Of a DNA stretch of 64,000 nucleotides, positions 3,691-25,616 are shown piece after piece. Source of the stretch: Candidatus Thiodictyon syntrophicum (GTDB taxonomy: Bacteria; Pseudomonadota; Gammaproteobacteria; Chromatiales; Chromatiaceae); NCBI RefSeq assembly GCF_002813775.1, contig NZ_CP020370.1:124001-188000 (forward strand), written 5' to 3'. The position numbers were made by a program, and so were the translations under genes. The notes beneath the pieces are model-generated. The model did no database searches and had not been told where the DNA came from. It saw nothing but the letters and a program-made list of their open reading frames with translations. The first letter of the stretch is position 1; every line of letters begins with the position of its first letter.

Positions 3691-6600
3691 TCACTGGACC
3701 GGCCGCACCCGCGCCCGGATCGCCGCCCGCAAGGCCGCCGGGTCGAGCGGCTTGCGCAGCACCAGGGGCCGCCCGGGGAGGTCGTCGAGGCCCGCCAGGG
3801 CGCTGTCCTGGCCGGTCATGAGGATCACCGGCAGCCCCGGCCGCTCCCGCGCCAGGTGCCGGAAGAGGCCGATCCCGTCCAGCGTGGGCATGGCGATATC
3901 GGAGAGCACGAGATCGAACCCGGAGTCCTGGGCCAGGAGTGCGAGCGCGGCCTGCCCATGTTCCGCCTGGGCCAGGTCCACCCCGCCCAGGGTCAGCAGC
4001 CGGGCCACCGCCTCGCGCACCCGCGGGTCGTCATCCACCACCAGGACGCGCAGCCCCGGGGGCAGCCCGTCGGACCCCGGGTCCGCGACGGCGGCCGGGG
4101 GTGAACGCGGGTCGGCGTCGGGTAGCGGCGTCGGCTCGCTCACGGCCGGCAACAGGAGCCGGAAGCTGGTGCCGCAACCCGGGCGCGATTCCACCACCAG
4201 CCCGGCCCCGGAGCGGGCGATGAACTCCTGCACCATGAAGAGCCCGAGCCCGTGGCCGCGCTGCTTGGCCTTGGTGGAAAAGAGCGGGTCGAAGATATTC
4301 GGGAGGATGGCGGGCTCGATGCCGCTGCCCGTATCGGTCACCCGCAACTCCACGCAGTCCATGGCCGGGCGGGTCCCGACCGCCAGGCGGGTGTCGTCGA
4401 CCCCGGCGCTGGGCGCGGCCTCAATGCGCAACTCCCCGCCCGCGGGCATGGCGTCGCGGGCGTTGAGCGCGAGATTGAGCAGCGCCGCTTGTAGAAAGCC
4501 CGCGTTGGTGCGCGCCTTGAGACCGGGCGCAATGGCGATGCTCAGGCGGATGGCCGCGGGCAGGACCTGCTGCAGGATGCGTGCCAACTCGGCGACGGTC
4601 TCTTGCAGGTCCACCGGCTCCAGCGGGACCCCCCCGGCGCGGCTCAAGGAGAGCATCCCGGAGGTGATGACCTTGGCCTGACCCAGGGCGCTTTGGGTCT
4701 CTTCCAAGACCTGACGCAGTTCGGGATCGCTGTCAGCCCCCGGCAGGCCGATGCTCAGGAAGTAGATGTTGGCATCGATGACCCCCAGCAGGTTGTTGAA
4801 ATCATGTGCGACCCCACTCGCCAGGTGGCCGATGGTCTCGCGCTCGCGCGACTCCACCAGGTCGTGCTGGATCTGCTCCTGATAGCGCATGGCCGCCAGG
4901 CGTTGGGCGATCAGCCGCAGCATCTGCCGCTCCGGTTCCCCCAGATTCAGGGCCGACTGGGTCCCCCACAGGGACAGGATCAGCGTTTCCGTCGGCCCGT
5001 CCGGCCGGGGGGCGTCGAAGGCGAGCCCTACGCAGGAGTGCAGGCCCGAGGTTGCCGCGGCCCCCGGCAGGCGGTCGATGCCCAGAACACAGGGGGTGCC
5101 GCGATGCGCCAGGGTCTGCGCCAGGACGGCCTGGAACATCGCCGGTCCGGGTCCGTCCGCGCCCTCACCGGGGAGTGCGATCAGCACCTGGTGCCGCTGG
5201 TCATCCTCCATCACCCCCAGGACCGCCGCCGCCGCCCCCAGGGTCCGGCAGCCGAGTTCCAGCAGGGCGCGGTCCTTGTCCGCGGGCGGCAGCGGCCGGT
5301 TGATCAGGTCCACCAGTTCCTCGAGCTGGGCGGCATGGCGGGTCTCGTTCTCGCGGATCAGGTCCTGCGCCAGGTGGCGATCGGTGATGTCCGTGTCGAT
5401 GCCGCGGTAGCCCAGGAAGGTGCCGTCCGGGGCCAGCATGGGTGCCCCGCTGCTCATCAGCCATACCCGCCAGTTCTGCACCCCCAGGCAGAGCCGGTCG
5501 AAGTCCCGGATCGGCTCACGGCGCTGCATGATGGCAAAGACGGCGGCCTTGACCGTGGCCCGGTCCGCGGCCGGCAAGAGATCGTAAAAATGCTGGCCGA
5601 TCAGTTCGTCCGCCCGATAGCCAAGGATCTGTTCGCAGACCGGGTTGACGTAGGTGTAGCGTCCCTGGGGGTCGATCTCCCAGCTCATGGAGCGGCTCTG
5701 ATGGGCCAACTGCTCATAGCGGGCGTTGCTCGCGCGCAGGTCCGCCGTGGCGTGGGCGCGGTCCATGGCCCCGGCCAGGACGCTGGCAAAGACCTGGAGG
5801 AAGCGGATCTGCATCGGCGACCAGTCCCGCGGGGCGCGCACGGCGTCGAAGCCGACACAGCCGAGCAGCACCTCGCCGACGGCCAGTGGTGCGACGAGCA
5901 TCGACTGGATTGCCTGGGCGCGGCACATCTCCTGCTCTCGGGACCAGGCCGCGGGCAGGTCCGTCACCCGGGGGATCACGACCGGCTCGCCGAGCCGCAA
6001 TTGGAGCATCAATTCCGGTAGCGTCGAAATGGGGATCGCCTGATTCTGCGCCAGCGCGGGGGCCACACCCGCCGCCGCCCACTCCAGGGTGTTGGTGAGG
6101 GTGCCCGCGGACTCATCGAGCAGGATGACGTAGCTGCGGTCCGCATGGGCGAAGCGACCAACGCGCTCGAGCGCCTCCGCGGTCAAGGCATCGAGCCCCT
6201 GGTCGGGCACGCCGAGCAAGCGCACGGCCAGTGCCAGCAGTTCGTCGACCATGGCTTCGCGCTGGGCCAGCGCCGCCTCGGCCTGTTTGCGCTCGCTGAT
6301 GTCCTGGTGGATGCCGGACATCAGCCGCGGGGCCCCCGCGGCGTCACGTTCCATCACCCGGCCCTGGTCCAGGACCCATATCCAGTGCCCGTCACGGTGG
6401 CGCATGCGCAGGTCGCACTCGTAGCCATCCAACTCGCCCCGGAAGTGCGCCTCCAGCAGGGCCAGGCTCCGCTTCAGGTCAGCGGGCTCCGTGAGGTCGA
6501 TCCAGGTCTGGATGCTGAGCGGGGCCAGGTCGGCCAACTGGTAGCCCAGGATCTCGGCCCAGCGCGCGTTGACCAGGATGACACCGGTCTGGACCTCCCA

Positions 6601-9088: not shown

Positions 9089-9197
9089 GTCGAACTAATC
9101 CTGTCAATCCGCTCTGATATCCTGGCTCTTGCTCGATCGCCGGACTGTTATCGAGACGTCCGCTTCGCGGTACCCGTGATCCTAGAAAGAGCAGTCA

Positions 9198-9345
9198 TCC
9201 ACAGATGAACACAGATGAACACAGATTATTCATTGGCTTACGCTTGGTCTGGGGCTCACCTTGCGGGTGATTGCGACAGTAGCGATAAGCGCATGACAAT
9301 TTGAAGAACATCTGTGTTCATCTGTGTTCATCTGTGGATTTTAGG
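9198..9345. repeat. Inverted repeat with CACAGATGAA arms
   Basis: The left arm has two copies of cacagatgaa in the context atccacagatgaacacag. The right arm is its reverse complement (ctgtgttcatctgtggat). The interior of about 75 bp differs from other elements. The arms have the same tandem-heptamer logic as the ATTTGCG elements here, and the left flank (agaaagagcagt) is shared with the element at 10823. It may act as a bidirectional terminator or be a MITE-like repeat. The rest of 8840-9382 shows no gene. Confidence 0.7.
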
Positions 9346-9382
9346 GTGATGCGCCGGCGGCTGCGCGCCGCAGCCTGGATCC

Positions 9383-10603
9383 TCAGGCCGGCAGTCCCAC
9401 GCGGGCCTCGACCACCGCCGGGCCATAGGCGCGCGTCAGGGCCGCGATGTCCATCGGGCGGCCGAACAGGAAGCCCTGCGCCAGGTCGGCGCCGGTCTCG
9501 ATCAGAAAGCGGCGCTGCGCCTCGGTCTCCACCCCCTCGGCCACGACCTTGAGCCCCAGGCTGTGGCCCAGCGTCACGATCGCCCGCAGCACCGTTTGGG
9601 CCTTGGCGGAATCGAACATCTCCGAGACGAACGACAGGTCGATCTTGAGGGTGTCGAAGGGCAGTTCGGTGAGGGCGCGGATGGACGAATAGCCGGTGCC
9701 GAAGTCGTCCATGGAGAGCGAGGCACCGAGCAGGCTGATCCGGGCCGTGAGGTCCCGGGCCGGCGGGGAATCGGCCATGGCGGCGGTTTCGGTCATCTCC
9801 ACCGCCAGTCGGCAGCAGTCCTGGAGCCCGGCCAGGAGCCCCCGCACCAGGGCGATGGCGCGGTCATGGTCCAGCGCGGCGGCGGACAGGTTGACCGACA
9901 GAAATCCGAGCTTAAGCGGCATCAGTTGCGGTTTGAGCCGCAGGACGCCGGCAAAGAGTGATTCGCTCAGCGCCATCAGGAGCCCCGCGGACTCCGCCAG
10001 CGGGATGAATGCAGCGGGGCCCAGGACCCGTCCGGAGGGCAGCCGCAGACGGGCCAGGACCTCGGCGCCGCGCAGGCGTCCGTCGCCGGGTTCCACGATC
10101 GGCTGGAAGTAGGGTTCGATGCGGTCCTCCCGAATGCAGCGGGCCAGGTCGCCGACCGTCAGTAGCTGCGCCCCGGCGGCCTGCGTGGGCGTCGGCACCG
10201 GCACCGGCACCGGCACCGGCACCGCAGGTGCGCTCTCGCACCGGCCCCGCGCGAGCAGGGGCGGCAGGTCGCGCACGATCCGGCCCTTGCTGACCACCCC
10301 CAGGACCTCGATCCCGCTGGCCCGGGCGATACGCCGGGCGGTGTCGAGCAGGTCGTCCCCGTGGCCGGAGAGCAGGATGAGGGGCGCCCGGGTCTGCGCC
10401 TGGGCGAGCCAGTGGATGATGTCGATACCGTTCTCCTGGCCGAGCTCCAGATCGAGCACGATCAGGTCAGGGGACCGCGCCTGCACATCGGTCTTGAAGC
10501 TCGCGGCGGCGGTATGAAACCGTACCGCATGGCCCAGGCGTACGGCGAAGCGCCGTAGGGCAGGCTCCATCCGGGGGTCATCGTCGAGGCAGATCAGGTT
10601 CAT
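9383..10603 (-). CDS. Response regulator with EAL domain (cyclic-di-GMP phosphodiesterase)
   Basis: 406 residues from the ATG at 10603; an in-frame start three codons earlier is possible. The N-terminal receiver has CLDDDPRM and the Asp in LIVLDLELG. A Pro-Val linker (about residues 128-138) is encoded by a tandem CACCGG minisatellite near 10197-10222. The C-terminal EAL domain keeps the catalytic signature with the motif as AEVLAR: NLSAAAL, the Glu pair in VEMTETA, DDFGTGYSS, the Lys in LKIDLSFV, the Glu in AEGVETEAQ and QGFLFGRPM. It is therefore probably an active phosphodiesterase that hydrolyses cyclic-di-GMP when its receiver is phosphorylated. It sits between the two paralogous hybrid kinases, which are obvious candidate phosphodonors. 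Repeat-number change in the linker could alter domain spacing. Confidence 0.9.
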   Translation of the reverse strand: MNLICLDDDPRMEPALRRFAVRLGHAVRFHTAAASFKTDVQARSPDLIVLDLELGQENGIDIIHWLAQAQTRAPLILLSGHGDDLLDTARRIARASGIEVLGVVSKGRIVRDLPPLLARGRCESAPAVPVPVPVPVPTPTQAAGAQLLTVGDLARCIREDRIEPYFQPIVEPGDGRLRGAEVLARLRLPSGRVLGPAAFIPLAESAGLLMALSESLFAGVLRLKPQLMPLKLGFLSVNLSAAALDHDRAIALVRGLLAGLQDCCRLAVEMTETAAMADSPPARDLTARISLLGASLSMDDFGTGYSSIRALTELPFDTLKIDLSFVSEMFDSAKAQTVLRAIVTLGHSLGLKVVAEGVETEAQRRFLIETGADLAQGFLFGRPMDIAALTRAYGPAVVEARVGLPA

Positions 10604-10986: not shown

Positions 10987-13900
10987 TCAAGGCCCGCGCG
11001 GCAGCCGCTCCCGGATGCGTGACAACAGGATCTCGGTCACCAGGGGTTTGTACAGAATCACCGTGTCCACCGGCAGCCCGGCGGCCTGGACGCTCTGATG
11101 ATCGTCGGCGGTCATCAGGATCACCGGCAGGCCCGGGGCCGCCCGGGCGAGGCGCCGGTGCAGTTCGATCCCGTCCATGCGCGGCATGACGATGTCCGAC
11201 AGCACCAAGTCGCAGGGCGCCCCGCCCTCCAGCAGGGCCAGGGCCGCGGCCCCATCCACCGCCTGGTCGACCTGCAAACCATGGTTCTCCAGGATTCGGC
11301 ACAGCACCGTGCGGATGCCGGGGTCGTCATCCACCAGCAGGACCCGGGCCGGCGGCGTCGGCAGCGCCTCTGCCGCGGCCGGCCCCGGCGTCGGCGCCGC
11401 CGCCGCGGCGGCCACCGGCAGATAGACCAGGAAGCGGCTGCCGCACCCCGGTTTGGTCTCGACCGCTACCCCGCCGCCGCAGCGGTCCGCAAACTCCCGG
11501 ACCATAAAGAGCCCGAGACCGGTGCCGCGCCCGCTCGACTTGGTCGAGAACAGGGGTTGGAAGATGTGTCCCAGGACCTCCGCCGACATGCCGACCCCGG
11601 TATCGGAGACCGCCAACTCCACATAGTCACCCGGCTCCAGGCGCCCCAGGGTCAGCGGCAGGGCGACGGTACGCGTCACGCGCGTGAGACCGATCCCGAG
11701 CCTGCCGCGCCCCCCCATGGCGTCCCGGGCATTGATGCACAGGTTGAGCAGGGCGGCCTGCAGCAGGGCCTCGTCCGCCAGGGCGGTGAGCTCGGGGGCG
11801 ATGTGGGTCGCCACCTCGATCTGCGCCGGCAGGATGCGCGCCAGGGTGCGCACGAAGCGCTCCACCACGGCCGAGACGGGCGTCGGTCCGGTCGCCAGCC
11901 GCCGCCCGCGGCTCAGCGACAGCAGGCCGGCGGTGACCATCTGGGCGTGCCGGGCGGCGAGCCGGGTCTCCTCCAGCACCTCGGCCACCTCCGGGGCCTG
12001 CCCCCGGGTACTGAGCAGATCCGTCAGATAGTCCAGGTTGATGTCGACCACGCCCAGCAGGTTGTTGAAGTCGTGGGCGACACCGCTCGCCAGGTGGCCG
12101 ATGATCTCGCGCTGGCGCGACGCCAGCAGTCCGTCCAGGACCGCGCGTTCCCGCAGGCCGGAGGCGATGCCCTGCCCCACGAGTTGAATCACCTGGAGCT
12201 TCTCGGGCGTCGCCGCGGCCACCCCCTGGCCGGGGGCGAAGGACAGGGCGCCCAGGTGGGCCAGCCCCTCGGCGTCGGTCCAGCGGATCAGGGCGGCAGC
12301 GGCGAAACCGCCGTGGGGGGGCAGGGCGCAGGGCCGCGGGGCCAGCGGTTGCTGGTCCGGCGCGGCCTCGCCGGAGCGCTCCAGGTCGCGGATGCCGGCC
12401 TGCTCCGCCGCACCCAGGGCCAGGACCGCGCCGGGCGCCAACACCGGTTCCATCCCGAGCCCCGCCGCCCCGAAGCTGGTGAGCAACCGGTAGCTCGTGC
12501 CTTGGATCTCCCCCAGTGCCGCCGCACTCGCCCCCAGGCTGTGACAGGCGAAATCGAGCAGGGCGCGGATCTGTTCGTGGGGCGGGCGGTAGCCGGCCAT
12601 CAGGTCCGAGAAGCCCTCCAGGTCGGCGTTGTAGCGCCGCAGGGCGCGGGCCGCGGCGTCCCGTTCGGCCTCGACCCCGCGGCGTTCCGCGGCATTGCGC
12701 AGGGCGATGGCGGCCAGATTGGCCGCTACCTCCAGCAGGTGCGCCTCGCGCTCGGAGGGGCCGTCCGGGCCGGTAGAGAAGATGGCGAAGACCCCCTGGA
12801 ACTGGCCCCCGGGGCCGGGGATGGGGTGGCACCAGCAGGCCCGGGGCGCGGCCTGGTCGAGGGCGTGCGGGGCCTCCCCCGAGGTCCCGACGGCGACGCC
12901 GTGGGTCGTCCAGTAGGGTCGCCCCGCGGTGGCGTCCTGATCCTGCGCGCCGCGGCCCAGGAGCTCAGCGACGGCCGGGACCTGCGCCGGGTCGACGGCG
13001 GGGGCCGCCAGCACCCGCAGCGGCACCGGCCCGCCGCCGGTGGCAAGCATCGAGCAGTGCCCGGGGACCAGCGCGTCCACCAGGCGGCACAGGCGCTGCG
13101 CCATGGCCGGCAGGTCCGCCGCGGCATCGAGCAGGACCTCCAGGCCATGCGCCTGGAGGGTCAGGGCGGCGCGCTGGGCCTCCTGGCCCTGCTGCTCTTG
13201 CGCCAGTGAAGCGAGCATGCTGTGGAAGGCCACGGCGAGCTGGTTGGTCTCGCGCAGCAGCCCCGGCGGCGGCAGGGGCGGGGGCGCCAGTGCGCGGAAC
13301 AGGGCGGGGTCGGCCGATTGTTGCGCGAGGTGCAGGATCGGCGCCGCAATGCGTCGACTCAGGTGATAGGCCCCCAGGGCGGCGCCCAGACAGATCACGG
13401 CGAGCACCAGGAGTTGCATCCCGATGGTCCGCTGCAGGGCCAGTATTCCGGGCTCGGCGCGCACCATCACCAGCAGCCGTGTCCCCGGGGCCGCCGCCGC
13501 CAGCGGCTGGTCCATGAAATACTCGCCCGCCCGCCATTGGGCCAGGCGTATCCGCACCTGCTGCCGCGGCATCCGCAGGTGCAGGTCCCGCTGCAGGTCC
13601 AGGACCGTCATGGTCCCCGGGCCGCTCGCTGGGGCGCCGGCCAGGGTGTTGCCCGCCGCGTCCACCACCGCGATGGAGACCCCCAGGGCCGCCGGGACCA
13701 GTTGCCGGATGCGGGTGGTCACCTCCTGGAGCCCGGCGTCCGAGAACCGCGCCCCGCCGTCCTCCGGCGGCAGCCCCGGGGTGCGCGCGGGCGCGCCGGC
13801 CGCGTCCAGGGCGTCCCGGGCCAGGGCGGCGGAGAGCGCCAGGGTGGACGCGACCCCCGCCTCCATCTGGACGCGCGCCGCGCTGGTCTGGAGTACCGTC

Positions 13901-15696: not shown

Positions 15697-16893
15697 GTGT
15701 TGAAGGAAATGCGCTTCGCCGGCGAGCGGGTCGCCGCGCCCCACCGCGACGGGCTTGCCGATGAGTTGGCCGCACTCGCCAACAGCCGCGGCGGGGTCTG
15801 TGTCCTGGGTGTCGACGATCGCCGCCAGGTCATCGGTATCCCCTTGGAGCGGCTGGATCGTGCGGAGCAGTTTGTCCGTGAACTGTGCCTGGATTCAGTG
15901 ACGCCGCCGCTCGCCCCGGTGATCGAGCGGCGGCGCCTGCCGACCGCGGCCGGGGAACTGGTGCCGGTATTGAAGGTGGAGGTACCCCGCAGCCTGTTCG
16001 TGCACAAGAGCCCCGGCGGTTATCTGCACCGGGTCGGCAGTGCCAAACGGGAGATGGCCCCCGAGTTTCTGGCCCGGCTCTTTCAACAGCGCAGCCAGGT
16101 CGGGATGATCCGGTTCGATGAACAGGTCGTGCCGCGCGCGACCCTGGACGATCTCGACGCACCCCTCTGGCAGCGCTTCGTCACCCCGCGGACCAGGGAT
16201 GACCGTGACAGTCTCTTATTCAAGCTCGCCATGGCGCGCCCGGACGACGCCGGGACCCTGCGCCCGACCGTGGCCGGGGTCCTGATGGGCAGCAGCGACC
16301 CGCGCCCCTGGCTGCCCAACGCCTTCATTCAGGCGGTGGCCTATCGCGACACCGCGGCGCGTCCCCGCGGTGACGAGTGGTACCAGATCGATGCCGCCGA
16401 CCTCGTCGGCCCCCTGGACCGGCAGGTCCTGGCGGCCTGCCAGTTCGTGCGCAAGAACATGCGGGTGGCCGCCAGCAAAGGCGAGGGCCGTCGGGACCTG
16501 CCCCAATTCGACCTGACGGCGGTCTTCGAGGCCGTCGTCAACGCGGTGGCCCATCGGGACTATTCGCTCGCCGGGTCGAAGATCCGGCTGCGCCTGTTCG
16601 CCGACCGGCTTGAACTGTATTCACCCGGCGGCATCGCCAACACCATGACTATCGCGAGCCTCCCCTACCGCCAGGCCGCGCGCAACGAGGCAATTACGAG
16701 CCTGCTGGCGCGCTGCCCGATACCCTCCGCGGAGGCTGGCTTGACGGATCGCAGCGCCATGATGGACCGACGGGGCGAGGGGGTGCAGATCATCCTGGAA
16801 CGCACCGAGCAGTTGTCCGGGATCACACCCGTTTATCGCCTGATCGACGAGTCGGAGGTGTTGCTGGTGATCTATGCGGCGAGCGGCCGATGA
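15697..16893 (+). CDS. AlbA_2 (Schlafen-like) ATP-binding transcriptional regulator
   Basis: 398 residues from a GTG at 15697, with an ATG four codons later as an alternative. The N-terminal part (about 10-110) matches the AlbA_2/Schlafen-like domain (LADELAALANSRGGVCVLGVD, then GYLHRVGS at its end). The C-terminal half has an ATP-binding helicase-regulator-like region with AVVNAVAHRDYSLAGSKIRL and LELYSPGGI, as in the Schlafen-domain regulators often annotated as RecG-like. The DNA around the start (ccaagaaaaagcagt) resembles the outer edge of the ATTTGCG elements. The gene follows the OmpR regulator by 22 bp on the same strand and may be read through from it. Confidence 0.75.
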   Translation: MLKEMRFAGERVAAPHRDGLADELAALANSRGGVCVLGVDDRRQVIGIPLERLDRAEQFVRELCLDSVTPPLAPVIERRRLPTAAGELVPVLKVEVPRSLFVHKSPGGYLHRVGSAKREMAPEFLARLFQQRSQVGMIRFDEQVVPRATLDDLDAPLWQRFVTPRTRDDRDSLLFKLAMARPDDAGTLRPTVAGVLMGSSDPRPWLPNAFIQAVAYRDTAARPRGDEWYQIDAADLVGPLDRQVLAACQFVRKNMRVAASKGEGRRDLPQFDLTAVFEAVVNAVAHRDYSLAGSKIRLRLFADRLELYSPGGIANTMTIASLPYRQAARNEAITSLLARCPIPSAEAGLTDRSAMMDRRGEGVQIILERTEQLSGITPVYRLIDESEVLLVIYAASGR

Positions 16894-16983: not shown

Positions 16984-17343
16984 CTAAACCGCCTCGCGCA
17001 GATGCATATCCACATGAATGTCCGCGAAGGGACAGAGCACGCCGCCGCGGGCGGTGCGCTCCAACAGACCCAAGTCGGCCAAGGCCGTCACGTCCTCGTG
17101 AACGCGCCTGACATCGCGCCCCGCCCGGTGCGCCAGGTCTCGAACCGTTACCTCCCCTGTACCCTGCAAGAGGCGCAAGAGGGCCCACCGCCGTTGCGTC
17201 AGTTTTCCGAAGAAGGCCCCCGGCGTCTCGAAGTTGAGCGACTCCCCTTGATAGGTCTCGGCACTGAAGGCTTGACGCGCCAGGGTCCGCAGGGCGCCTT
17301 GCCAATCGGCATCGACCGTGATGGTCAGTGTCCGCTTTTCCAC
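16984..17343 (-). CDS. HVO_A0114-type winged-helix DNA-binding protein, putative TumA antitoxin
   Basis: 119 residues from a GTG at 17343 that overlaps the end of the upstream toxin gene by 19 bp. A helix-turn-helix sits at about 53-95 (QRRWALLRLLQG, VTVRDLAHRAGRDVRRVHED, LADLGLLER), the MarR-like plan of HVO_A0114 proteins that pair with TumE toxins. Gene overlap and order (toxin first) match the second pair at 24907-25616. Its likely role is to neutralise the toxin and autoregulate the operon. Family knowledge supplies the antitoxin role; the sequence itself shows only the DNA-binding fold. Confidence 0.72.
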   Translation of the reverse strand: MEKRTLTITVDADWQGALRTLARQAFSAETYQGESLNFETPGAFFGKLTQRRWALLRLLQGTGEVTVRDLAHRAGRDVRRVHEDVTALADLGLLERTARGGVLCPFADIHVDMHLREAV

Positions 17344-17612
17344 TTTTCCACCTCCCGGATGAAATCGTCAATCAATCGGTCAACATCGACAAACACATAG
17401 GGGGCCTCCTGATGACCCAGATGCATGTGGTCGCCCTTGCCGCGCTCGTTGTCGAAACCAACGGCACGTTCGCCGTTTACCACATAGACCAGCCGGTACT
17501 TGTAGCCGTGCCCCGACGGCGGCACCGGTGCCGGTACGCGCCAGACCACCATTTCGATCCCGTTCCCCGCATCGGAAACGTTACGGAAACGGGTGATCAG
17601 TTCAGCTTTCAT
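17325..17612 (-). CDS. TumE-family (DUF6516-like) toxin
   Basis: 95 residues from the ATG at 17612 (MKAELITRFRN), preferred over a longer open frame because the upstream residues look non-coding. Recognisable features are VVWRVPAPVPPSGHGYKYRL, GERAVGFDNERGKGDH and a C-terminal helix (VDRLIDDFIREVEKW). These match small DUF6516/TumE toxins, including the second example in this window (KFKFAGRRLVYDHKHRH). The stop overlaps the putative antitoxin start, indicating translational coupling. The mode of action cannot be read here. Confidence 0.72.
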   Translation of the reverse strand: MKAELITRFRNVSDAGNGIEMVVWRVPAPVPPSGHGYKYRLVYVVNGERAVGFDNERGKGDHMHLGHQEAPYVFVDVDRLIDDFIREVEKWKSGH

Positions 17613-17875
17613 GTTGGGGAGGTTGCCAACCCAGGCGGCCGTTGTCAACTCTCTCGAACGCTGTTCCGGGGCGGGAGCGTGCACCGACGACCACGGGGTA
17701 CCCGACCGGCCTGCTAATGCATCCAACCGGCACCTTGCCGCGCCTTCGCCTGAGGCGCAGCGATGCGCTGGGAGTCATGCAGCCATTCACCAACGGTTCT
17801 CTGGATGCCGGACCAACCGCATTGCTTGACGAGCTTGGCGCCTTGGCGTGAGCAATTGCCGGATTCGGATTCAGG

Positions 17876-18017
17876 ACGGCGGCGCGGCGCGGAAGGCGTC
17901 CATCGGGTGGTACATCCAGTGCTTGCCGTCCGGCAGCGGGGCGTGCCAGCCGAGCCAGCGCCAGGCGTCGCGGCTCCAGTGGACCCAGCGGCGGTTGGGG
18001 CCGTCGGGGTCGTGTCA
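17876..18017 (-). pseudogene. Possible remnant of an aromatic-rich small protein (C-terminal fragment)
   Basis: In one frame the stretch reads about 46 residues rich in Trp, His and Pro (PNRRWVHWSRDAWRWLGWHA, then PLPDGKHWMYHPMDAF). A TGA sits directly upstream and there is no start codon. Such a composed run is unlikely by chance and the other frames look random, so it may be the end of a decayed gene. I do not recognise the family. The remainder of 17613-18027 shows no gene. Confidence 0.35.
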
Positions 18018-18027
18018 TCTGAAACGG

Positions 18028-21000
18028 TTATGCCAACCGGCACACCTCGGTGAGCCCCCCGCAGAATTCGTCGACCGACTGATACCGTTCGCTAGGCTCC
18101 AAAGCCACAGCGCGGCACAAGACCTTCTTGACCCTCGCGGGCACCGCCAAACGCTTGATGAATGCCTCGGTGTTGCGTAGAACCTCGTTGCCGGGTAGGT
18201 CCTTGCCGTGAAAGGCGAAAACGGCGGTCATTCCCAGTGAATACACATCGGCGCGCGCGTCCACATCCTGCGGACGCTGCATCATCTCCGGTGCCGCGTA
18301 GACATAGGTACCCATCATGCCGGACTCGGTACCGCCGGTGGTATCGGCGGCCCATACTAAATCGAAGTCTGTGAGCTTTGGCGCCCCTCCCGCGTCGAGC
18401 ACGATGTTTGCGGGCTTGATGTCCCGATGAATCAACCGGCGTCCATGGGCGAAGGTCAGGGCACGGCCTACACTCAGGATCAAGTCCGCGGCGCGATCCG
18501 GACTCACAACACCGCTAAGGACGGCCTGGCGAAGGTCCCCGCCGGGCAGATATTCCATGACGAAGAAGTAGTGCCCCTCCTCTCCGCGGCCGGAGTCGAG
18601 GACCTGAACTATACCCGGGTGGTGTAGCCCCCCCATCTTGCGAGCACCGCGGAAAAATCGCTCCACCCGGCTCTTATCGTCACCGTGATGACCATGCAGC
18701 ACCTTGATTGCGGTCCAGCGCTCCAAACGGTGGTCGTACGACTTGAAGATGGTAGCGAATCCTCCCTTACCGAGTGTGTCGACCAGCTCGTAACGGCCAT
18801 CGAGCAGGTCATCACCGACGCGCAACAAGCCACCTGCGCGCAAGTGACGCTTCAATTCGACGATTTGCTCATCTACCCCACTGGTATCCTTCCCCTCCCG
18901 AGCAAGTTGTTGTTTTCGGACGCGGGCGGCGGCTAGGACGTCCGAGAGTGATTGGCTCTGCGGGTCTGGGCACCGGCTCTTGGAAACAGCGACCGCCCCG
19001 GCCCGCTCGGAAGGTGCGGGCACGGCCGGAGCCGACGCCAGAACTGTGACCGGTCCGAGCGGCGCCTTGACGGCCTCGGGCTGAGCGGTCAACAGACGAT
19101 AGAGCCGTTCGTAGCCCGAGTCCCGGCTGTCGAGCCCCCGGACGCGGCAGAATGTCCAGCCGCGGACCATGACCGGGATCGACTCTTCGGGCTCGTCGTC
19201 AAGTAACACCGGCACGAAGCGCCGGTTTTCCTTAGCGCCATAGATCTCGTCGTCGATCAACGCCCCTTCCCAGAACACGCCTCTGCCGGTCCGCGGATCG
19301 ACACGTCCATCTAGACGGTCACGGTAGAGCCGCGAGCAGATCATCAACACCCAGTCCGAGCGTTCGGGCCGCAACTGCTCCAGACACCACCTGGGCCAGT
19401 CGACGAGTTCGTGCTGGTGAAATTGATCAAGCTCGACGTCGATGCCCTGTGCGCGAAGGGCCTGGGCGAGCGCCAGCACCCGCTGCGAGTGCGAATCTGA
19501 GAATTGTGCATAGCTCATGAAAATCCGGCGCCTCCCCATCGACTCGAGCGTCCCCGCCAACCCGATGTACGCGGTTCGTTCATTGTCGTGCAGGAACTCT
19601 ACCTGGGCGGGGTCCGCAGACAGGCGCTCGGAATCTGCTTCGCCTCCAAGTCCGACGCCGCTCCGGTCCAGCGCCTGCAAGTCAACACGCACAACCTCAC
19701 GTCTTCCGTCCGCTGGACGCGGTTCCAGCCCCGGGATACGGAAGCCGGTTAGCTCGATGCCGGGCATACCATGTGCGAGCGCATGGAGATCGTACGCCAG
19801 AGCCAGCTCGCTCACCTTGGGCCGGTACTCGGCGAGAATACGCCTCAGCCCGGCCAGACAGGCGCCGGTGTCCCGGCCGGCGATGAGTCCGCCCAGGAAA
19901 TCCAGAGTCTCATAGTTTGGCCGCGGGAGTGCCCAGTCATCCAGCCGATCATCAACCAGTGCCCGGTGCAGTGCACGGGCCAGGAAGAACTCCTGGATGG
20001 AGGTATGGGCGAAGCGGAACCGGTCCTCGCCCTCCCGGACCAGGAAGGTCGCGTTGCGCAGGTCCTCTTCCAAGACCTCCATACCGCCGTCGCGGGCGAG
20101 ATAGGACTGGTACTCGACCTCCCGCCAACCGGGCTCGGTGCGGATCTGCGCGACCAGCCAGTCGTTGAGTGTCTGGTAGCCGAGGTGCTTCTCCCCGCCG
20201 GCCCAGAGGCGCAGCGCCAAGCGCTCCATGAGGAGCAGCTTGTGGTCGCGGTTGAGTCGGTGCTTGGGGTCGTCGCGGCGCGTCCACTGACCGACCAGGC
20301 CCTCGTAGAGGTCGGCAATCGAGACCCGGCGTCCCTCGCGCCGGATCTGCTCCAGCTCGTCCACCTGGTCCTGGATCAGGCGCAGGTTGTAGGGGCGGCT
20401 GCCCAGCTCTTTGAGGTCGTGCACCTGGTCCAATATGGCGATGACTCGCTCGGCCTGGGCCGGGTCGGCGGCGAAGACCTGGCGGAAGTAGGTCTCGACC
20501 TGGCGTGCGTCGAAGGGCAGGAGGGTGGCCCAGAGGTAATCGGCGCGGCCGATCGGTACCCGCTGCTGGCCGCTCAGAGCGTTGACCTGGTCCTGTACGG
20601 TCTGGAAGAAGTGGCTGCGGCAGGTCATCAGCAGGCGCCCGACGCCGGGCGGGCGACGCCAGGTTTGGACCTGCTCTGGAGTTAGACCGGGCGGTGGCTT
20701 CCAGATCATGGGGGGCAGGACGGACCAGAGCCGCTCGATGAAGAGCCGACACTGCTCCGGGGTGAGTCGATTCATCACCTCGCTGAGTCCGTCGCAGAGG
20801 ATGAGCCCCCCGCCCTGCTGGGCCAGGCGGGCGATGTCCGCGGCGCTCGGGCGGAGTTCATCGACGCCCAGGTCATAGGCGGCGGCAACGATGTGCTCCA
20901 GCATGTCCGCGAGCGGCGGGGCGCCCCTGGACCAGTCCCACTCCATCGTGTTGACGGCGCGCAGATCGAGGTAGACCGGGAGCGGCAGGGACTCGCCTGC

Positions 21001-21843
21001 ATCCCGGCCCCTGAGCAGGTCGCGGGTGAGGCGTTGGCACAGGGTGGTCTTGCCCATGCCGAGTTCGCCGAAGACGGCACACAGGACGCTCGCTTGCGGG
21101 TCGGCGAGCCAGTCACGCAGGAGTTCGATGGCGACCCGGCCCGCGGGCGCCCCGGGGACCTCGGTGTGCTGGTGGACATAGTGGCCGTCCGGGAGGTCGC
21201 CGAAGCGCTCCCAGTCCGGGCGGCGGAGCCGGGCGAAGGGGTCGGGCGCGCGCTCGGGACGGCGGATGGCTGCGAGCAGCCAGGCGGCGGCATCGCGGAC
21301 CCACTGCTTGCGGCCGGAACCGCTGCGAGCGGTCCACGGGTCGGCGCCTTGGGTGGCGAAAATCGGCAGGCCGGCGAGCGGCGTGCCACGGCATTGGTCG
21401 TCCGTGACCGTACCCAGGGCCAGGATCAGCAGGGGGCGGTCCGTCTCCAGCGCGAGGCCGCGGTTCTTGAGGTCGTCGATGAGCGCCGGGCTCGCCAGGA
21501 CCAGGACGAAGCGGGCGTCGCGTAGCCAGGCGCGGCGGGTAGCCTCGATCGGATCGCCGGCGTCGGGTCTGTGCCAGTCACGGGCGGGCCAGGAGCAGTC
21601 GCGGGACCCAAGCTCCGTGGCGAGTGCCTGGTGGAGCGCCGTGGCGTCCTTCTCGTCGCGCTGGGCATAGAGGAGCAGATAGAAGGGCTCGACCGTCTCG
21701 GCACGGACGGCGACATATTGCTCTGCCTCGGTCCGGGGCAGGCCCAGGGTGGCGCCCTCGGCGGAGCGGGCGAGACGGATCTGCGCGTCGTCCGGGATGG
21801 CGGCACCGGGCCATGAATCGGCGGGTTCGGGGGTCTGGGGCAT
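18028..21843 (-). CDS. TIR-like / NACHT / SEFIR / Ser-Thr kinase fusion protein
   Basis: 1271 residues from the ATG at 21843. The order, from motifs, is as follows. A TIR-like domain at about 52-180 (FYLLLYAQRDEKDATALHQA, RFVLVLASPALI). A NACHT NTPase at about 250-650 with Walker A FGELGMGKTTL (257-267), Walker B GGLILCDGLSEV (345-356) and a helical tail (RFRFAHTSIQEFFLARAL). A SEFIR domain at about 772-905 (RRIFMSYAQFSDSHSQRV, RSDWVLMICSRLY, GVFWEGALIDDEIY). A protein kinase at about 1018-1271 with GKGGFA loop, Lys1047 (AIKVL), HRDIKPANIV with Asp1141, and APE at 1184-1186. The metal-binding DFG triad reads DFD (1159-1161). NACHT/STAND proteins with TIR effectors act in bacterial antiviral sensing; a defence role here is inferred. 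The gene follows a TIR gene by 38 bp. Confidence 0.85.
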   Translation of the reverse strand: MPQTPEPADSWPGAAIPDDAQIRLARSAEGATLGLPRTEAEQYVAVRAETVEPFYLLLYAQRDEKDATALHQALATELGSRDCSWPARDWHRPDAGDPIEATRRAWLRDARFVLVLASPALIDDLKNRGLALETDRPLLILALGTVTDDQCRGTPLAGLPIFATQGADPWTARSGSGRKQWVRDAAAWLLAAIRRPERAPDPFARLRRPDWERFGDLPDGHYVHQHTEVPGAPAGRVAIELLRDWLADPQASVLCAVFGELGMGKTTLCQRLTRDLLRGRDAGESLPLPVYLDLRAVNTMEWDWSRGAPPLADMLEHIVAAAYDLGVDELRPSAADIARLAQQGGGLILCDGLSEVMNRLTPEQCRLFIERLWSVLPPMIWKPPPGLTPEQVQTWRRPPGVGRLLMTCRSHFFQTVQDQVNALSGQQRVPIGRADYLWATLLPFDARQVETYFRQVFAADPAQAERVIAILDQVHDLKELGSRPYNLRLIQDQVDELEQIRREGRRVSIADLYEGLVGQWTRRDDPKHRLNRDHKLLLMERLALRLWAGGEKHLGYQTLNDWLVAQIRTEPGWREVEYQSYLARDGGMEVLEEDLRNATFLVREGEDRFRFAHTSIQEFFLARALHRALVDDRLDDWALPRPNYETLDFLGGLIAGRDTGACLAGLRRILAEYRPKVSELALAYDLHALAHGMPGIELTGFRIPGLEPRPADGRREVVRVDLQALDRSGVGLGGEADSERLSADPAQVEFLHDNERTAYIGLAGTLESMGRRRIFMSYAQFSDSHSQRVLALAQALRAQGIDVELDQFHQHELVDWPRWCLEQLRPERSDWVLMICSRLYRDRLDGRVDPRTGRGVFWEGALIDDEIYGAKENRRFVPVLLDDEPEESIPVMVRGWTFCRVRGLDSRDSGYERLYRLLTAQPEAVKAPLGPVTVLASAPAVPAPSERAGAVAVSKSRCPDPQSQSLSDVLAAARVRKQQLAREGKDTSGVDEQIVELKRHLRAGGLLRVGDDLLDGRYELVDTLGKGGFATIFKSYDHRLERWTAIKVLHGHHGDDKSRVERFFRGARKMGGLHHPGIVQVLDSGRGEEGHYFFVMEYLPGGDLRQAVLSGVVSPDRAADLILSVGRALTFAHGRRLIHRDIKPANIVLDAGGAPKLTDFDLVWAADTTGGTESGMMGTYVYAAPEMMQRPQDVDARADVYSLGMTAVFAFHGKDLPGNEVLRNTEAFIKRLAVPARVKKVLCRAVALEPSERYQSVDEFCGGLTEVCRLA

Positions 21844-21881
21844 CGGCAGGTCCTCGCCTGGTGCGGTGGATGCGGGGCGGT

Positions 21882-22412
21882 TCAGGGCGTGTCCTGGGGC
21901 CAGATCCGCCGCAGCTTGGTGAGCATGGCCGCCACGAGTTGGTCGGCGAAGGCGTCGGCGGTGTGGCCGCGGGTCTCGGTGAAGGCGCGCCGCTCACGGT
22001 CGCGGAACAGCTGGAGTTGATCGAGCCCGGCCAGGTCAGCGCTGCCGTCGAGCGGGATGGGCTTGAGCATCACCGGAACCAGGGGCTTGCGGATGCGGGT
22101 CTCGGCCTCGCTGCCGGCGCCGCCGCCGGGATTGCTGATCCGCTCGATGAAGGTCGGCAGTTCCTCGCGGCGGATGAAGCCGCTGGCGAGGAAGCTCGGG
22201 GATAGGAGCAGGAGGCCGAAGTCGCAGCCCGCGAGTACGGCGCCGATGGCGTCGGTCCAGCGCTCGCCGACGGCGATCCGGTCATCGATCCAGTGACGGA
22301 AGCGGTAGCCGCGGGCGATGGCGAGTCGGGGCGCCAGCAGGTCGAGCAGCCGGCCGGTCGGGGCTTGGTCGGCATGTGCATAGCTGACAAAATAGGTCAG
22401 TTCAACGGTCAC
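21882..22412 (-). CDS. TIR-domain protein
   Basis: 176 residues from a GTG at 22412, covering essentially one TIR domain: TYFVSYAHADQAPTGRLLDL (beta-A/helix-A), FRHWIDDRIAVGERWTDAIG (the DD.i..G..w BB-loop-like region), CDFGLLLLSPSFLASGFIRREEL and VPVMLKPIPLDG. The Glu in REELPTFIE lies where catalytic TIR NADases carry Glu, but I cannot prove activity. It is 38 bp upstream of, and on the same strand as, the large NACHT fusion, which has its own TIR-like and SEFIR domains. Homotypic TIR contacts between the two products are plausible. Confidence 0.85.
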   Translation of the reverse strand: MTVELTYFVSYAHADQAPTGRLLDLLAPRLAIARGYRFRHWIDDRIAVGERWTDAIGAVLAGCDFGLLLLSPSFLASGFIRREELPTFIERISNPGGGAGSEAETRIRKPLVPVMLKPIPLDGSADLAGLDQLQLFRDRERRAFTETRGHTADAFADQLVAAMLTKLRRIWPQDTP

Positions 22413-22738: not shown

Positions 22739-23158
22739 CTAATGGCGTTCGTACCACCGGATCAATTCAAACGGATGCCCGCCTTGGAGGCGGTAGACCT
22801 GGAAATCGGTTTCATCGACAGTCAGGATGCTTCTCTGGCCGCTTTGACTCGCCAGCCAGACCAGCGCCGCATCCGCGAAATCAATATCTTGATCGGCGTA
22901 TTTCCGGATGTAGGCCGCCAGGTCCGGGTAGCTGCTCACCGGGATGTCCGTGACGGCTAATCCTCCCTGCGCGATCTAAGTCAATAGAGCGGCTTTTCCA
23001 GGTGCGTCCAGAAAGAAGCAGGTTTCCACGATCACCGGCGCTGCCGTTTGCAGGGGCGACTGGTTCTGTTGCAGATAAGCGACGGCGGCATGGTGCAGGT
23101 TGTCGCCGCGAATGTAGAGCGCGACCAGAAAGCCGGTATCAACGAGTAACGGGGTCAC
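22739..23158 (-). pseudogene. PIN-domain (VapC-like) toxin interrupted by one in-frame TAG
   Basis: From a GTG at 23158 the frame reads a PIN N-terminus (LLVDTGFLVALYIRGDNLHH, VIVETCFFLDAPGKAALLT), meets TAG at 22976-22978, and continues in the same frame as a PIN C-terminus (IAQGGLAVTDIP, DIDFADAALVWLASQSGQ, ILTVDETDFQVYR). Without the stop the product would be about 139 residues, the normal VapC size. The acidic residues are present (D in LLVDTG, E in VIVETC, D in DIDFADA, D in TVDETDF). No frameshift is involved. The start overlaps the upstream antitoxin gene, as in intact pairs. The simplest view is inactivation by one point mutation. Confidence 0.85.
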
Positions 23159-23387
23159 GAAATCGCTCCCGCAGGATCTGACGGCTATTTTTCGCGATAT
23201 CGCCGGAATGGGTCTGATCCGCGCCAAATCCTTCTTTGCCGAGGGCATAGGGTGTGAGCGAGGGGGGGGCGCTCAACAGCTGCTGAAGTGCCCGCTGGAT
23301 CGCTTGATCTTCGGTGATACCGTGTGCCCGGCAAAAAGCCGCCAGCCGCTCTTCAAGAATCGCTGGCAAGTGGATGGAAAGGCTCAT
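23139..23387 (-). CDS. CopG/ribbon-helix-helix-type antitoxin
   Basis: 82 residues from the ATG at 23387. The N-terminus MSLSIHLPAILEERLAAFCR followed by ITEDQAIQRALQQLL is a ribbon-helix-helix pattern. The C-terminal tail FGADQTHSGDIAKNSRQILR is typical of antitoxin tails that wrap a PIN toxin. It overlaps the start of the amber-interrupted PIN gene by 20 bp. If the toxin is dead, this antitoxin is an orphan that may still repress the operon or cross-neutralise related toxins. Confidence 0.72.
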   Translation of the reverse strand: MSLSIHLPAILEERLAAFCRAHGITEDQAIQRALQQLLSAPPSLTPYALGKEGFGADQTHSGDIAKNSRQILRERFRDPVTR

Positions 23388-23489
23388 ATCGCAGTCTCAC
23401 TGGCGTTCTTTGGTTGATCGGGCAGCCGGCGATGGGTCCCGCCGTCCGGCCGTGTGCAGGCGACCTGCTTGAAACACGAATTCCGGAGT

Positions 23490-23820
23490 CCGTCGTGTCT
23501 TCTGCACGGCAACCGGGAATCGCCTCCGCGAAAGCATGTTGGTCGATGGCCGTGGCGTTCTGCCCAGGTTCGCGCCCCCACGGGATCATGATCAAGGCCG
23601 CCGACAGGACTTACGCCACGATCCTGAACTCGGTTGTCTTTGCTACTGGACGCACATGATTCTGCCGATCACGATTGCTTTCATCGCCGCTTGATCTGAG
23701 ATCAGGGCCAGGGCCGCGGCGCCGTTGTCCGCGATTTCCACGCTCAGCCCCAGCTTGCGCAACATGCCGCAGGCGACCTTTTGGTTGACCAGGTTGTCCT
23801 GTCTCGGGCTCGGCCGCAGC
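23490..23820 (-). pseudogene. Decayed duplicate of the tumA / tumE-end / kinase-receiver region (24785-26100)
   Basis: Three pieces lie in the same order as the intact locus. Bases about 23715-23820 encode NLVNQKVACGMLRKLGLSVE, matching the second receiver of the kinase at 25735. Bases near 23680-23700 encode the first residues of the second TumA protein (MKAIVIG). Bases 23611-23660 encode its last residues (HVRPVAKTTEFRIVA). About 120 bp of downstream DNA (to 23490) then match 24785-24906. The toxin gene and the middle of the antitoxin gene are missing. Confidence 0.8.
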
Positions 23821-23983: not shown

Positions 23984-24403
23984 CTACCGGCCTTCGTGAT
24001 TCAACCAGTTCTCGACCACCAGCCCCGGCACGCGGCGGAACTCGTCCTCGTTGGCGGTGACCAGGATCAGGCCGTGTGCAAGGGCGTGGGCCGCGATGAG
24101 CAGGTCGTTGGTGCCGATCGGCGTGCCCGCGCGTTCGAGCGCCGCTCGGATCTCGCCGTAGCGGCGATCCGCGGGCTCGTCGAAGGGCAGGATGTCCAGG
24201 GCCGTCAGCACGGTCTTCAGTTGGGCGGTCAACCGCTGCGAGCCCTTCTTCGCCGCGCCGAAACGCAACTCCGCGGCGACGACGATGCTGGTGCAGACCC
24301 GTTCCTCGCCGCGCGCGGCGATGCAGTCGCGGATGCTCCCCGCGGGCCGACGCACGAGATCGGAGACGATGTTGGTGTCGAGCAGATACGCGGGCTTCGG
24401 CAT
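23984..24403 (-). CDS. vapC: Type II toxin VapC (PIN-domain ribonuclease)
   Basis: 139 residues from the ATG at 24403. The PIN acidic residues are visible: Asp in YLLDTNIVSD, Glu in VVAAELRFGA, Asp in GTNDLLIAAH and the Asn/Asp region in LVTANEDEFRRVPGL. Family members are Mg-dependent endoribonucleases that cut tRNA, rRNA or mRNA. The antitoxin gene ends 12 bp upstream, giving the usual vapB-vapC order. The pair lies between the decayed duplicate at 23490 and the intact copy of the same sequence at 24785, so it may have arrived with, or survived, that duplication. Confidence 0.9.
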   Translation of the reverse strand: MPKPAYLLDTNIVSDLVRRPAGSIRDCIAARGEERVCTSIVVAAELRFGAAKKGSQRLTAQLKTVLTALDILPFDEPADRRYGEIRAALERAGTPIGTNDLLIAAHALAHGLILVTANEDEFRRVPGLVVENWLNHEGR

Positions 24404-24784: not shown

Positions 24785-24960
24785 GTCCGTCGTGTCGTCT
24801 GCACGGCAACCGGGATCGTCTTCGCGAAAGCATGTTGGTCGATGGCCGTGGGGTTCTGCCCAGGTTCGTGCCCTCACGGGATCATGATCGAGGCCGCCGA
24901 CAGGACTTACGCCACGATCCTGAACTCGGTTGTCTTTGCCACTGGACGCACATGATTCTT
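24785..24960. repeat. Direct repeat of 23490-23660
   Basis: The two stretches agree over about 170 bp with scattered differences (for example gtccgtcgtgtcgtctgcac here against gtccgtcgtgtcttctgcac). The right copy runs into the intact tumA-like gene at 24907 and the left copy into its deleted remnant. Recombination between the copies would excise vapBC. The remaining bases of 24650-24784 show no gene. Confidence 0.8.
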
Positions 24961-25254
24961 TTCCCGCCTCATCTCCACCAGACCGTAGTTCGACATCGTT
25001 CTCAGCGTTCGCGAAAGATTGCCGGGCTTGCGTCCGGTGAGTTCCGCCAAGGATGAGATCGATTGTGGCTTTGCCTCCTGGATCACCTTTAGAAGGGCAC
25101 GGTTCTCGTCGCTCAGAACTTCGGCCAGGGAGCGCATCGAGGTAAACCAGATCTTTGGTTCTGAAGGCTTGGGCTTGTACTCGCCGCGCGCGATGGACAA
25201 GACGCGCTCGCGAATTCGCTCCTGCGACATGATGCCGATTACGATTGCTTTCAT
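24907..25254 (-). CDS. HVO_A0114-type winged-helix protein, putative TumA antitoxin (second copy)
   Basis: 115 residues from the ATG at 25254, which overlaps the toxin stop as ATGA. The winged helix is at about 40-100 (LAEVLSDENRALLKVI, SISSLAELTGRKPGNLSRTL, LVEMRREKNHVRPVA). The family pairs with TumE/DUF6516 toxins, as here. Compared with the first pair (16984-17612) the sequence is clearly different, so this is a second system rather than a recent copy. An internally deleted duplicate of this gene lies at 23611-23700. Confidence 0.78.
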   Translation of the reverse strand: MKAIVIGIMSQERIRERVLSIARGEYKPKPSEPKIWFTSMRSLAEVLSDENRALLKVIQEAKPQSISSLAELTGRKPGNLSRTLRTMSNYGLVEMRREKNHVRPVAKTTEFRIVA

Positions 25255-25616
25255 CGCTGCTTTATCTCCTTTAGCACTCGATCGACCTCCCCGAAGAAGT
25301 CGGCCAGTAGTTGGTGTGCATCCTGGAATTCGTAAGGTATTCCTTGGTCACTGACATGCCTGTGTTTGTGATCGTAGACCAGCCGTCGGCCGGCGAACTT
25401 GAACTTCTTGGGCAGCTTGATCATATGGGCGTTGTCGTAGCCAAGAATGCGCTTGCCATGCGGTTCATGGAGTGTCAGTGAGTAACGTATGCCATGCGGC
25501 ACTTCCTCGGAGGCCGCGGCCAGCCACGCCTCGATCTTGATCCAATAACCTTCGCCCTGATCAATAATCTGGCCGTGTAAGTCGATGAGAGTGCGAATTC
25601 CAGGGTCTTCACGCAT
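25251..25616 (-). CDS. TumE-family (DUF6516-like) toxin (second copy)
   Basis: 121 residues from the ATG at 25616. It opens with LIDLHGQIIDQGEGYWIKIE and contains SLTLHEPHGKRILGYDNAH, KFKFAGRRLVYDHKHRH and a C-terminal helix (AHQLLADFFGEVDRVLKEI). This is the TumE/DUF6516 pattern: a strand-rich core with basic and His residues and an acidic last helix. The stop overlaps the antitoxin start by 4 bp, implying coupled translation. The catalytic or target residues are not established by sequence alone. Confidence 0.78.
   Translation of the reverse strand: MREDPGIRTLIDLHGQIIDQGEGYWIKIEAWLAAASEEVPHGIRYSLTLHEPHGKRILGYDNAHMIKLPKKFKFAGRRLVYDHKHRHVSDQGIPYEFQDAHQLLADFFGEVDRVLKEIKQR

Follow-up and report, generated by a model that had tools for sequence, protein, structure and literature searches.

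How can a receptor of the NACHT type work when the place of its sensor is taken by a SEFIR domain and a protein kinase? This question is raised by two adjacent genes of the purple sulfur bacterium Thiodictyon syntrophicum Cad16T, one encoding a stand-alone TIR protein and the other a fusion protein that joins a TIR-like N-terminal domain (NTD), a NACHT NTPase, a SEFIR domain, a linker and a kinase. Both genes lie in a 64,000-nucleotide stretch of DNA (C1:124001-188000, the window hereafter). The genome totals 7,738,984 bases on three contigs, C1 itself having 6,837,296 bases; in the Cad16T genome paper the chromosome measures 6,837,296 bp and the two plasmids 484,824 and 416,864 bp. An earlier sequence-only reading had located the two genes here, and their open reading frames (ORFs) confirmed the positions (Table 1), with the TIR gene upstream on the same strand and 38 bp between its end and the fusion gene. 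In general, STAND NTPases oligomerise, TIR NADases need oligomerisation, and C-terminal repeats do the sensing. We lean towards the interpretation that the two genes constitute a bacterial immune or cell-death module resembling nucleotide-binding leucine-rich repeat (NLR) receptors of the STAND/NACHT kind, whose sensor was replaced and whose mechanism we infer below.

A conserved pair of TIR and pseudo-TIR-NACHT genes

We found the NTD of the fusion protein at 12 loci (the window, L056, L064-L066 and L083-L089). L085 was left out of the pairing count because the contig start cuts the locus, and in all 11 assessable loci a relative of the small TIR gene, or a remnant of one, was present upstream on the same strand. 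At L065, a hydrolase gene on the opposite strand lies between the TIR and NACHT genes. On the evidence of these loci, the stand-alone TIR gene and the pseudo-TIR-NACHT gene are a conserved two-gene pair. The expectation that the genes would co-occur in related genomes was thus borne out, and the NACHT and TIR calls together with the conserved pairing agreed with the earlier proposal, an immune-type NACHT module accompanied by a TIR protein.

The small TIR protein matched Pfam TIR_2 over residues 8-143 (40.5 bits), and its sequence matches in the PDB include the AbTIR NAD+ hydrolase 8g83. Its Glu84 is invariant in all nine aligned small TIRs and aligns with a Glu of 7uxr across a one-residue gap. 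We infer that Glu84, in alphaC, is the candidate catalytic residue, and the protein is predicted to be the effector (an NADase). The host genome is rich in TIR domains: TIR_2 was matched 35 times at E 0.001, and 32 of these matches exceed the Pfam cut-off.

Relationship of the NTD to these TIRs was hardly visible in Pfam for the window protein (TIR_2, 18.2 bits, E 0.0038, below the cut-off of 28); TIR_2 was the top family in all seven NTDs of relatives tested (E 1e-6 to 0.062), and the NTD of L065 passed the cut-off (29.6 bits). Profile comparison by hhalign, with nine rows per side, aligned the NTD family with the small TIR family over 141 columns (probability 98.3, E 1.7e-14). When a hidden Markov model (HMM) of the NTD was used as the query, all nine small TIRs (E 3.4e-17 to 1.4e-3) outranked the best of 2000 decoys made by shuffling sequences (0.061), and with the small-TIR profile as the query all nine NTDs outranked the decoys (best decoy E 1.0). 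Judged by these profiles, the NTD is homologous to the neighbouring small TIR. The alphaC stretch bearing the conserved Glu was absent from all six NTDs aligned with TIRs (an alignment from which the reference TIR rows L004, L006 and L007, of seven, were left out) and fell in a gap of the profile alignment. As far as these alignments indicate, the domain is a TIR that lost its presumed catalytic helix; the earlier description of a TIR-like region therefore held with respect to homology, whereas the Glu-bearing stretch proved to be gone. A PDB search with the NTD profile returned AP-2 chains alone (E 0.45-0.52), which were taken as chance matches.

The NTD has a narrow distribution in the genomes searched. 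A five-row profile had matches in 10 genomes among 210 of the order, all ten belonging to the host's own family, and in G015 it also matched a stand-alone TIR gene (52 bits). A ten-row profile, searched against a class sample of 369 genomes, matched the window's small TIR as well (E 7.9e-4), together with short frames, of 231 and 164 aa, in two genomes from a different family; in a phylum sample of 398 genomes, the NTD search found the window's genome alone. Viral contigs contained no relative of the small TIR or the NTD, and plasmid records gave no match for the NTD of L056.

Some of the loci differ in their arrangement. A helical NNH6 domain comes first in the relatives L064, L065, L084 and L085. 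In L067 (G006:C194, 6081-9581), a member of the same NACHT family, NNH6 is followed by a phosphorylase domain (PNP_UDP_1) in the place of the pseudo-TIR and then by pentapeptide and WD40 repeats, which fits the idea that the second position is a slot for output or recruitment. L087 (G219) and L088 (in the host genome) are decayed pairs; L088 (C1:4690000-4700000, minus strand) consists of a TIR fragment at 5178-5462 and an NTD fragment at 5819-6133 (88% and 82% identical to L056, respectively).

Exchange of the WD40 sensor

In all six relatives that are readable past NACHT (L056, L064, L065, L083, L086 and L089), the NACHT protein runs on into pentapeptide repeats and then into a WD40 array of 10-14 matched repeats, and neither SEFIR nor kinase was present among their best 25 Pfam families. 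L064, L065 and L089 end at their own stop codon. So does L056, although it goes out of frame shortly before; L083 and L086 leave the contig inside the WD40 repeats. L085 has one WD40 repeat, and L084 pentapeptides alone before the contig ends. Similarity of the window protein to the WD40 relatives stops near residue 705-735 and is followed by SEFIR, linker and kinase, a part found at one of the 12 loci (the C-terminus of L088 is unreadable and L084 ends early). Pfam revealed no C-terminal repeat or ligand-binding sensor in the window fusion.

Just downstream of the fusion gene, we identified a scar left by the ancestral NACHT-WD40 gene, namely its 3' end. It is 91.2% identical in nucleotides to the 3' end of L056 over 137 bp, 82% to that of L064 over 125 bp and 74% to that of L065 over 126 bp, and the part from 17951 to 17882 is 95.7% identical to L066 over 70 bp. 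Read in its own frame, the scar encodes 47 residues before a stop, and these correspond to the C-terminal ends of L064 and L065 as read in frame. Because a WD40 scar lies downstream of the fusion, the SEFIR-kinase cassette took the place of the sensor; on this comparison, the fusion is a sensor replacement drawn from a shuffled SEFIR/kinase toolkit. We rejected the possibility that the SEFIR-kinase part is ancient in the pair, given the WD40 arrays in six of six readable relatives and the WD40 scar. The sequence-only reading had assigned sensing to the NACHT region, which the comparison did not support, as the relatives carry WD40 at the sensor position and the window copy has lost it.

The nearest relative, L066, is 86% identical to the window over residues 1-709 and stops after the pentapeptide repeats. 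A PIN-domain gene with a small partner occupies the WD40 place there (9190-9869, opposite strand), with a remnant of the WD40 tail behind it; L066 has, by this alignment, lost the same slot as the window by another route. In L056, the WD40 gene seems to be frameshifted near its end (11616-12120), and the tail reads correctly in the neighbouring frame.

Domains and origin of the fusion protein

The four-part domain order proposed earlier was recovered by Pfam for NACHT, SEFIR and Pkinase, and its N-terminal TIR was weak in Pfam and stronger by profile comparison. The NACHT match (residues 255-459) scored 28.5 bits against a cut-off of 26.7. Both NACHT motifs had been cited as such before: the Walker A motif GELGMGKTT (21043-21069) is indeed intact, but CDGLSEV departs from DGLDE. 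Its Walker B reads DGLSE, with D354 replaced by Ser in the window only; L066 and seven other relatives retain the Asp (for L084, L085 and L086 the state was taken from the alignment column). For the NTD and NACHT of L056, PADLOC 2023 gave no family.

A single stretch accounts for the SEFIR (residues 772-891, 30.3 bits) and TIR_2 (774-914, 48.6 bits) matches in Pfam, so that the SEFIR call and the second "TIR" match of the HMM search are one and the same domain. PADLOC's bSEFIR profile also matched this stretch (133.6 bits), aligned at positions 29-203 alone of its 412. Solved structures related to it are the SEFIR chains 5y8e and 5y8f, and the S-Y and W-E motifs are kept.

The kinase domain matched Pfam Pkinase at residues 1018-1217 (120.5 bits), and among the best 25 of 34 PADLOC matches to the fusion, the leading kinase matches were PD-T4-6 defence kinases. 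Nearly complete kinase motifs had been claimed, which calls for a correction: the alphaC Glu is replaced by Gly1066 and DFG by DFD, the Lys, the HRD Asp and the Asn being kept, and the PknB alignment agrees. Of the residues that define a canonical Hanks-type kinase (Lys, alphaC Glu, HRD and DFG), the Glu and the DFG are therefore missing. Among 39 kinase rows, whose relatives were fetched largely by similarity and are not a random sample, seven have Gly at the alphaC Glu; they represent five genes (the window, two in G002 and one each in G004 and G005), and DFD is present in the six Gly rows (four genes) in which the motif is aligned. The other 32 rows have Glu in 31 cases and DFG in all 32. 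This Gly/DFD clade has so far been seen only in Thiodictyon fusions. It raises the question of an active enzyme or a scaffold; the window kinase may have weak or unusual activity or act as a scaffold. The five phage records listed, among 38 that matched, match the kinase alone, as do the 20 plasmid records listed among 544 that matched the fusion.

Both components of the cassette occur in other contexts. In other genomes of the genus, the linker-kinase is part of a CHAT-kinase (L069), a trypsin-kinase-FGE-FGE (L068) and a caspase-kinase-FGE-SEFIR protein (L057, apparently on the same contig as L009), and residues 956-1269 of the window protein are 67% identical to L057. SEFIR is found elsewhere in a metallophosphatase-SEFIR protein (L060) and with a weak AAA_16 and TPR (L059). 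The host genome itself encodes further SEFIR proteins. One joins SEFIR to TPR, another adds a weak AAA_16 match that stays below its cut-off, and there is also a SEFIR frame of 272 aa followed downstream by a TPR frame. In the 210 genomes of the order, with at most seven candidates scored per genome, no other gene among the E 1e-38 matches had the SEFIR-kinase order. A fixed SEFIR-linker-kinase order was considered and rejected, since the order was not seen in other genes in this search.

Features and neighbouring genes

The features of the module are collected in Table 1. TumE toxin/HVO_A0114 HTH gene pairs are present on either side of it in the same orientation (16984-17726 and 24907-25616), and Pfam identified PIN-domain genes nearby at 23984-24403 and, just below the cut-off, at 22976-23248. 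Direct repeats (23488-23697 and 24785-25267; 148 nt at 95% plus pieces of 31 and 35 nt) in this toxin-antitoxin stretch are a duplication with rearrangement. A Schlafen AlbA_2/HATPase_c_4 protein (15697-16893, Pfam) adjoins the toxin-antitoxin genes.

Table 1. Coordinates of the TIR gene, the fusion gene and their parts within the window.
Feature	Position	Strand	Basis or remark
Stand-alone TIR gene, 176 aa, GTG start	21882..22412	(-)	ORF; Pfam TIR_2
Fusion gene, 1271 aa (pseudo-TIR-NACHT-SEFIR-linker-kinase)	18028..21843	(-)	ORF; Pfam, PADLOC
Pseudo-TIR domain, residues about 35-200	21244..21741	(-)	hhalign to small TIRs; weak TIR_2; HMM matches to small TIR genes
NACHT NTPase with the region after it, residues about 240-705	19729..21126	(-)	Pfam; alignment of relatives
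5' junction zone, residues about 706-771	19531..19728	(-)	NACHT-WD40 similarity ends, SEFIR-fusion similarity begins
SEFIR domain, residues 772-945	19009..19530	(-)	SEFIR, TIR_2, bSEFIR profiles; 5y8e, 5y8f
Conserved linker, moves with kinase	18814..18981	(-)	Also in L057, L068, L069
PknB-like Ser/Thr kinase domain, atypical	18049..18810	(-)	Pfam Pkinase; motif and PknB alignments
Scar, 3' end of ancestral NACHT-WD40 gene	17881..18017	(-)	10 bp past fusion stop, other frame

Selection and alternative explanations

Nei-Gojobori ratios of nonsynonymous to synonymous change (omega) against the nearest relatives were 0.16 for the TIR, 0.20 for the NTD, 0.15 for NACHT, 0.12 for SEFIR and 0.24-0.28 for the kinase, values that point to purifying selection on each part; against the more distant L056, NACHT gave 0.20. 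Of the columns without variation in seven relatives (214 in all), 6 are changed in the window alone, 4 in L066 alone and 9 in both. Counts of synonymous and nonsynonymous changes were 70/54 on the window branch and 64/42 on the L066 branch, in a comparison that cannot date the fusion. We observed neither a clear surplus of changes along the window branch nor a clear sign of decay.

Several results weigh against a functional module with an exchanged sensor. The fusion has been seen in one genome only, and the D354S change in Walker B could weaken NTP hydrolysis. Against L056, the NTD gave an omega of 0.52, and for SEFIR and kinase dS lies close to 1 or exceeds it. Since L066 has also lost its WD40 part, low omega values against it partly reflect shared ancestry, and they do not prove that the fusion works. 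With regard to the pseudo-TIR, the window and L066 NTDs were barely above the decoys when the small-TIR profile was the query (E 0.29 and 0.44), and the decoys were shuffled sequences rather than other TIR families. The mean predicted local distance difference test score (pLDDT) of single-sequence AlphaFold models (40.8 for residues 1-237 and 39.0 for the small TIR) was too poor for the fold or the complex; Foldseek with the former gave nothing at E <=0.001, a flavin-binding protein ranking first and the TLR1 TIR 23rd (E 0.098), and no conclusion was drawn from the AlphaFold and Foldseek results.

It is therefore worth asking whether the fusion is a by-product of recombination that lost its sensor, picked up SEFIR-kinase by chance and no longer works although its frame is still open. 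Its occurrence in a single genome and the Walker-B change, unique among the aligned relatives, would fit, as would the loss of the same region in L066, where a PIN-domain gene is now found; this loss and the decayed pairs L088 and L087 together indicate that turnover is high. We nevertheless regard this explanation, the main rival of the preferred one, as rather unlikely, because the 1271-codon frame is intact, omega is 0.12-0.28 for all parts against the nearest relatives, the window branch shows no clear excess of change and the cassette ends sit close to domain boundaries. A misassembled fusion was also considered and judged unlikely, as the assembly is reported to come from PacBio RS II data at about 200x.

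Two further explanations place the output in the C-terminal half. A kinase output, alongside NAD+ loss or in its place, had been proposed at the outset; activated NACHT would cluster the SEFIR-kinase parts, and proteins of the cell or of phage would be phosphorylated in response. The conserved Lys, HRD Asp, Asn and first Asp of DFG and the PD-T4-6 matches are in its favour, but we consider it improbable: all four clade genes with both positions aligned have other residues for the alphaC Glu and for the Gly of DFG, the kinase stands in the sensor position and was not seen in the other pairs, and the gene conserved across the pairs is the TIR partner. A kinase output is accordingly not demonstrated, as the clade is atypical and a SEFIR-kinase present at 1 of 12 loci is not conserved with the pair. 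Even less credible, in our view, is a second NADase effector of the bSEFIR type at the C-terminus, which would put two TIR-fold enzymes under one NACHT switch. The bSEFIR profile score, the W-E motif and the listing of SEFIR among NAD-depleting systems in one paper speak for such an enzyme; its C-terminal position speaks against it, conserved residues do not equal activity, and SEFIR in several fusions looks regulatory or sensor-like.

Proposed mechanism and implications

According to the preferred interpretation of a TIR/NACHT module with an exchanged sensor, an infection or stress cue would reach the C-terminal half of the receptor, and NACHT would then bind nucleotide and oligomerise. The Glu-less N-terminal TIRs might thereby form a platform on which the stand-alone TIR is recruited and aligned, and the latter would degrade NAD+, so that the cell stops or dies. 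Recruitment of the small TIR by the pseudo-TIR is made more plausible by their homology and by the loss of the presumed catalytic helix from the N-terminal copy. In the window copy, no propeller would bind a ligand directly; instead, other SEFIR proteins could pass on the cue by SEFIR-SEFIR contact, the atypical kinase could gate it, or both. The other SEFIR proteins of the same genome could be such partners. A more specific and doubtful version is that the module acts as a helper receptor, a shared amplifier that other SEFIR proteins might switch by homotypic contact under the gate of the kinase. If true, this would represent a receptor network in a single bacterium, like the sensor/helper NLR networks of plants.

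The exchange of the sensor is documented here by the types of donor module, by the junctions on either side and by the scar left behind, so that the idea of swapping at the input end of NLR-like receptors can be tested. The conserved design can also be named, as a TIR effector coupled to a receptor of the pseudo-TIR-NACHT-WD40 type, whose recruitment of the effector seems to depend on a TIR without its presumed catalytic helix.

Comparison with known systems

The pseudo-TIR-NACHT/TIR pair and the fusion were not described in the open-access literature searched, and they may be in print elsewhere. Like Avs and bNACHT proteins, the receptor has a central NACHT and a variable N-terminal output region, with a C-terminal repeat sensor in the relatives; unlike them, it has a separate TIR effector gene, presumably recruited by the Glu-less TIR, and the window copy is without a repeat sensor. 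With regard to Thoeris, the small TIR is a weak match to ThsB in PADLOC (30.0 bits; 38.4 bits for that of L065). No ThsA was recognised among the window proteins scanned, the genome not having been searched for it, and the partner here is the NACHT protein. Systems of the bSEFIR and PD-T4-6 types consist of single genes, bSEFIR being a SEFIR domain with its own C-terminal region. Single domains of the fusion match their profiles, but here they are parts of one NACHT protein, and the extent of the profile alignment shows that the fusion has the SEFIR domain of bSEFIR and not its C-terminal region.

Animal APAF-1, and TEP1/NWD1 as described in a preprint (PMC13174449), combine a recruitment or TIR-like domain, an NTPase and WD40 repeats. 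This likeness applies to the relatives only: two genes are involved here, the window copy has no WD40, and DUF4062 was absent from the Pfam results for the pseudo-TIR.

A comparison closer to home is offered by Thiohalocapsa, another purple sulfur bacterium, in which NACHT, TIR, CHAT, trypsin, kinase and CLec/FGE domains are shuffled in putative immune loci linked to diversity-generating retroelements (DGRs), FGE/CLec domains being of the kind that these elements diversify (PNAS 2024, PMC10907252). Such domains are shuffled in Thiodictyon too; the sister kinase modules in G002 and G004 carry FGE, and the window protein does not.

The arrangement of the pair itself recalls the STAND-FGS/TIR pair that shares a bDLD3 adaptor (the "EAD principle"; eLife 2021, PMC8195603), with adjacent receptor and effector genes and a shared homotypic domain. 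In our case the NTD and the small TIR are homologous and neighbours in 11 of 11 assessable loci, and their interaction is predicted; the difference is that a TIR serves as the shared domain, and only one of its two copies retains the conserved Glu. Recruitment by a TIR without the presumed catalytic helix would also resemble the way TIR adaptors operate in eukaryotes.

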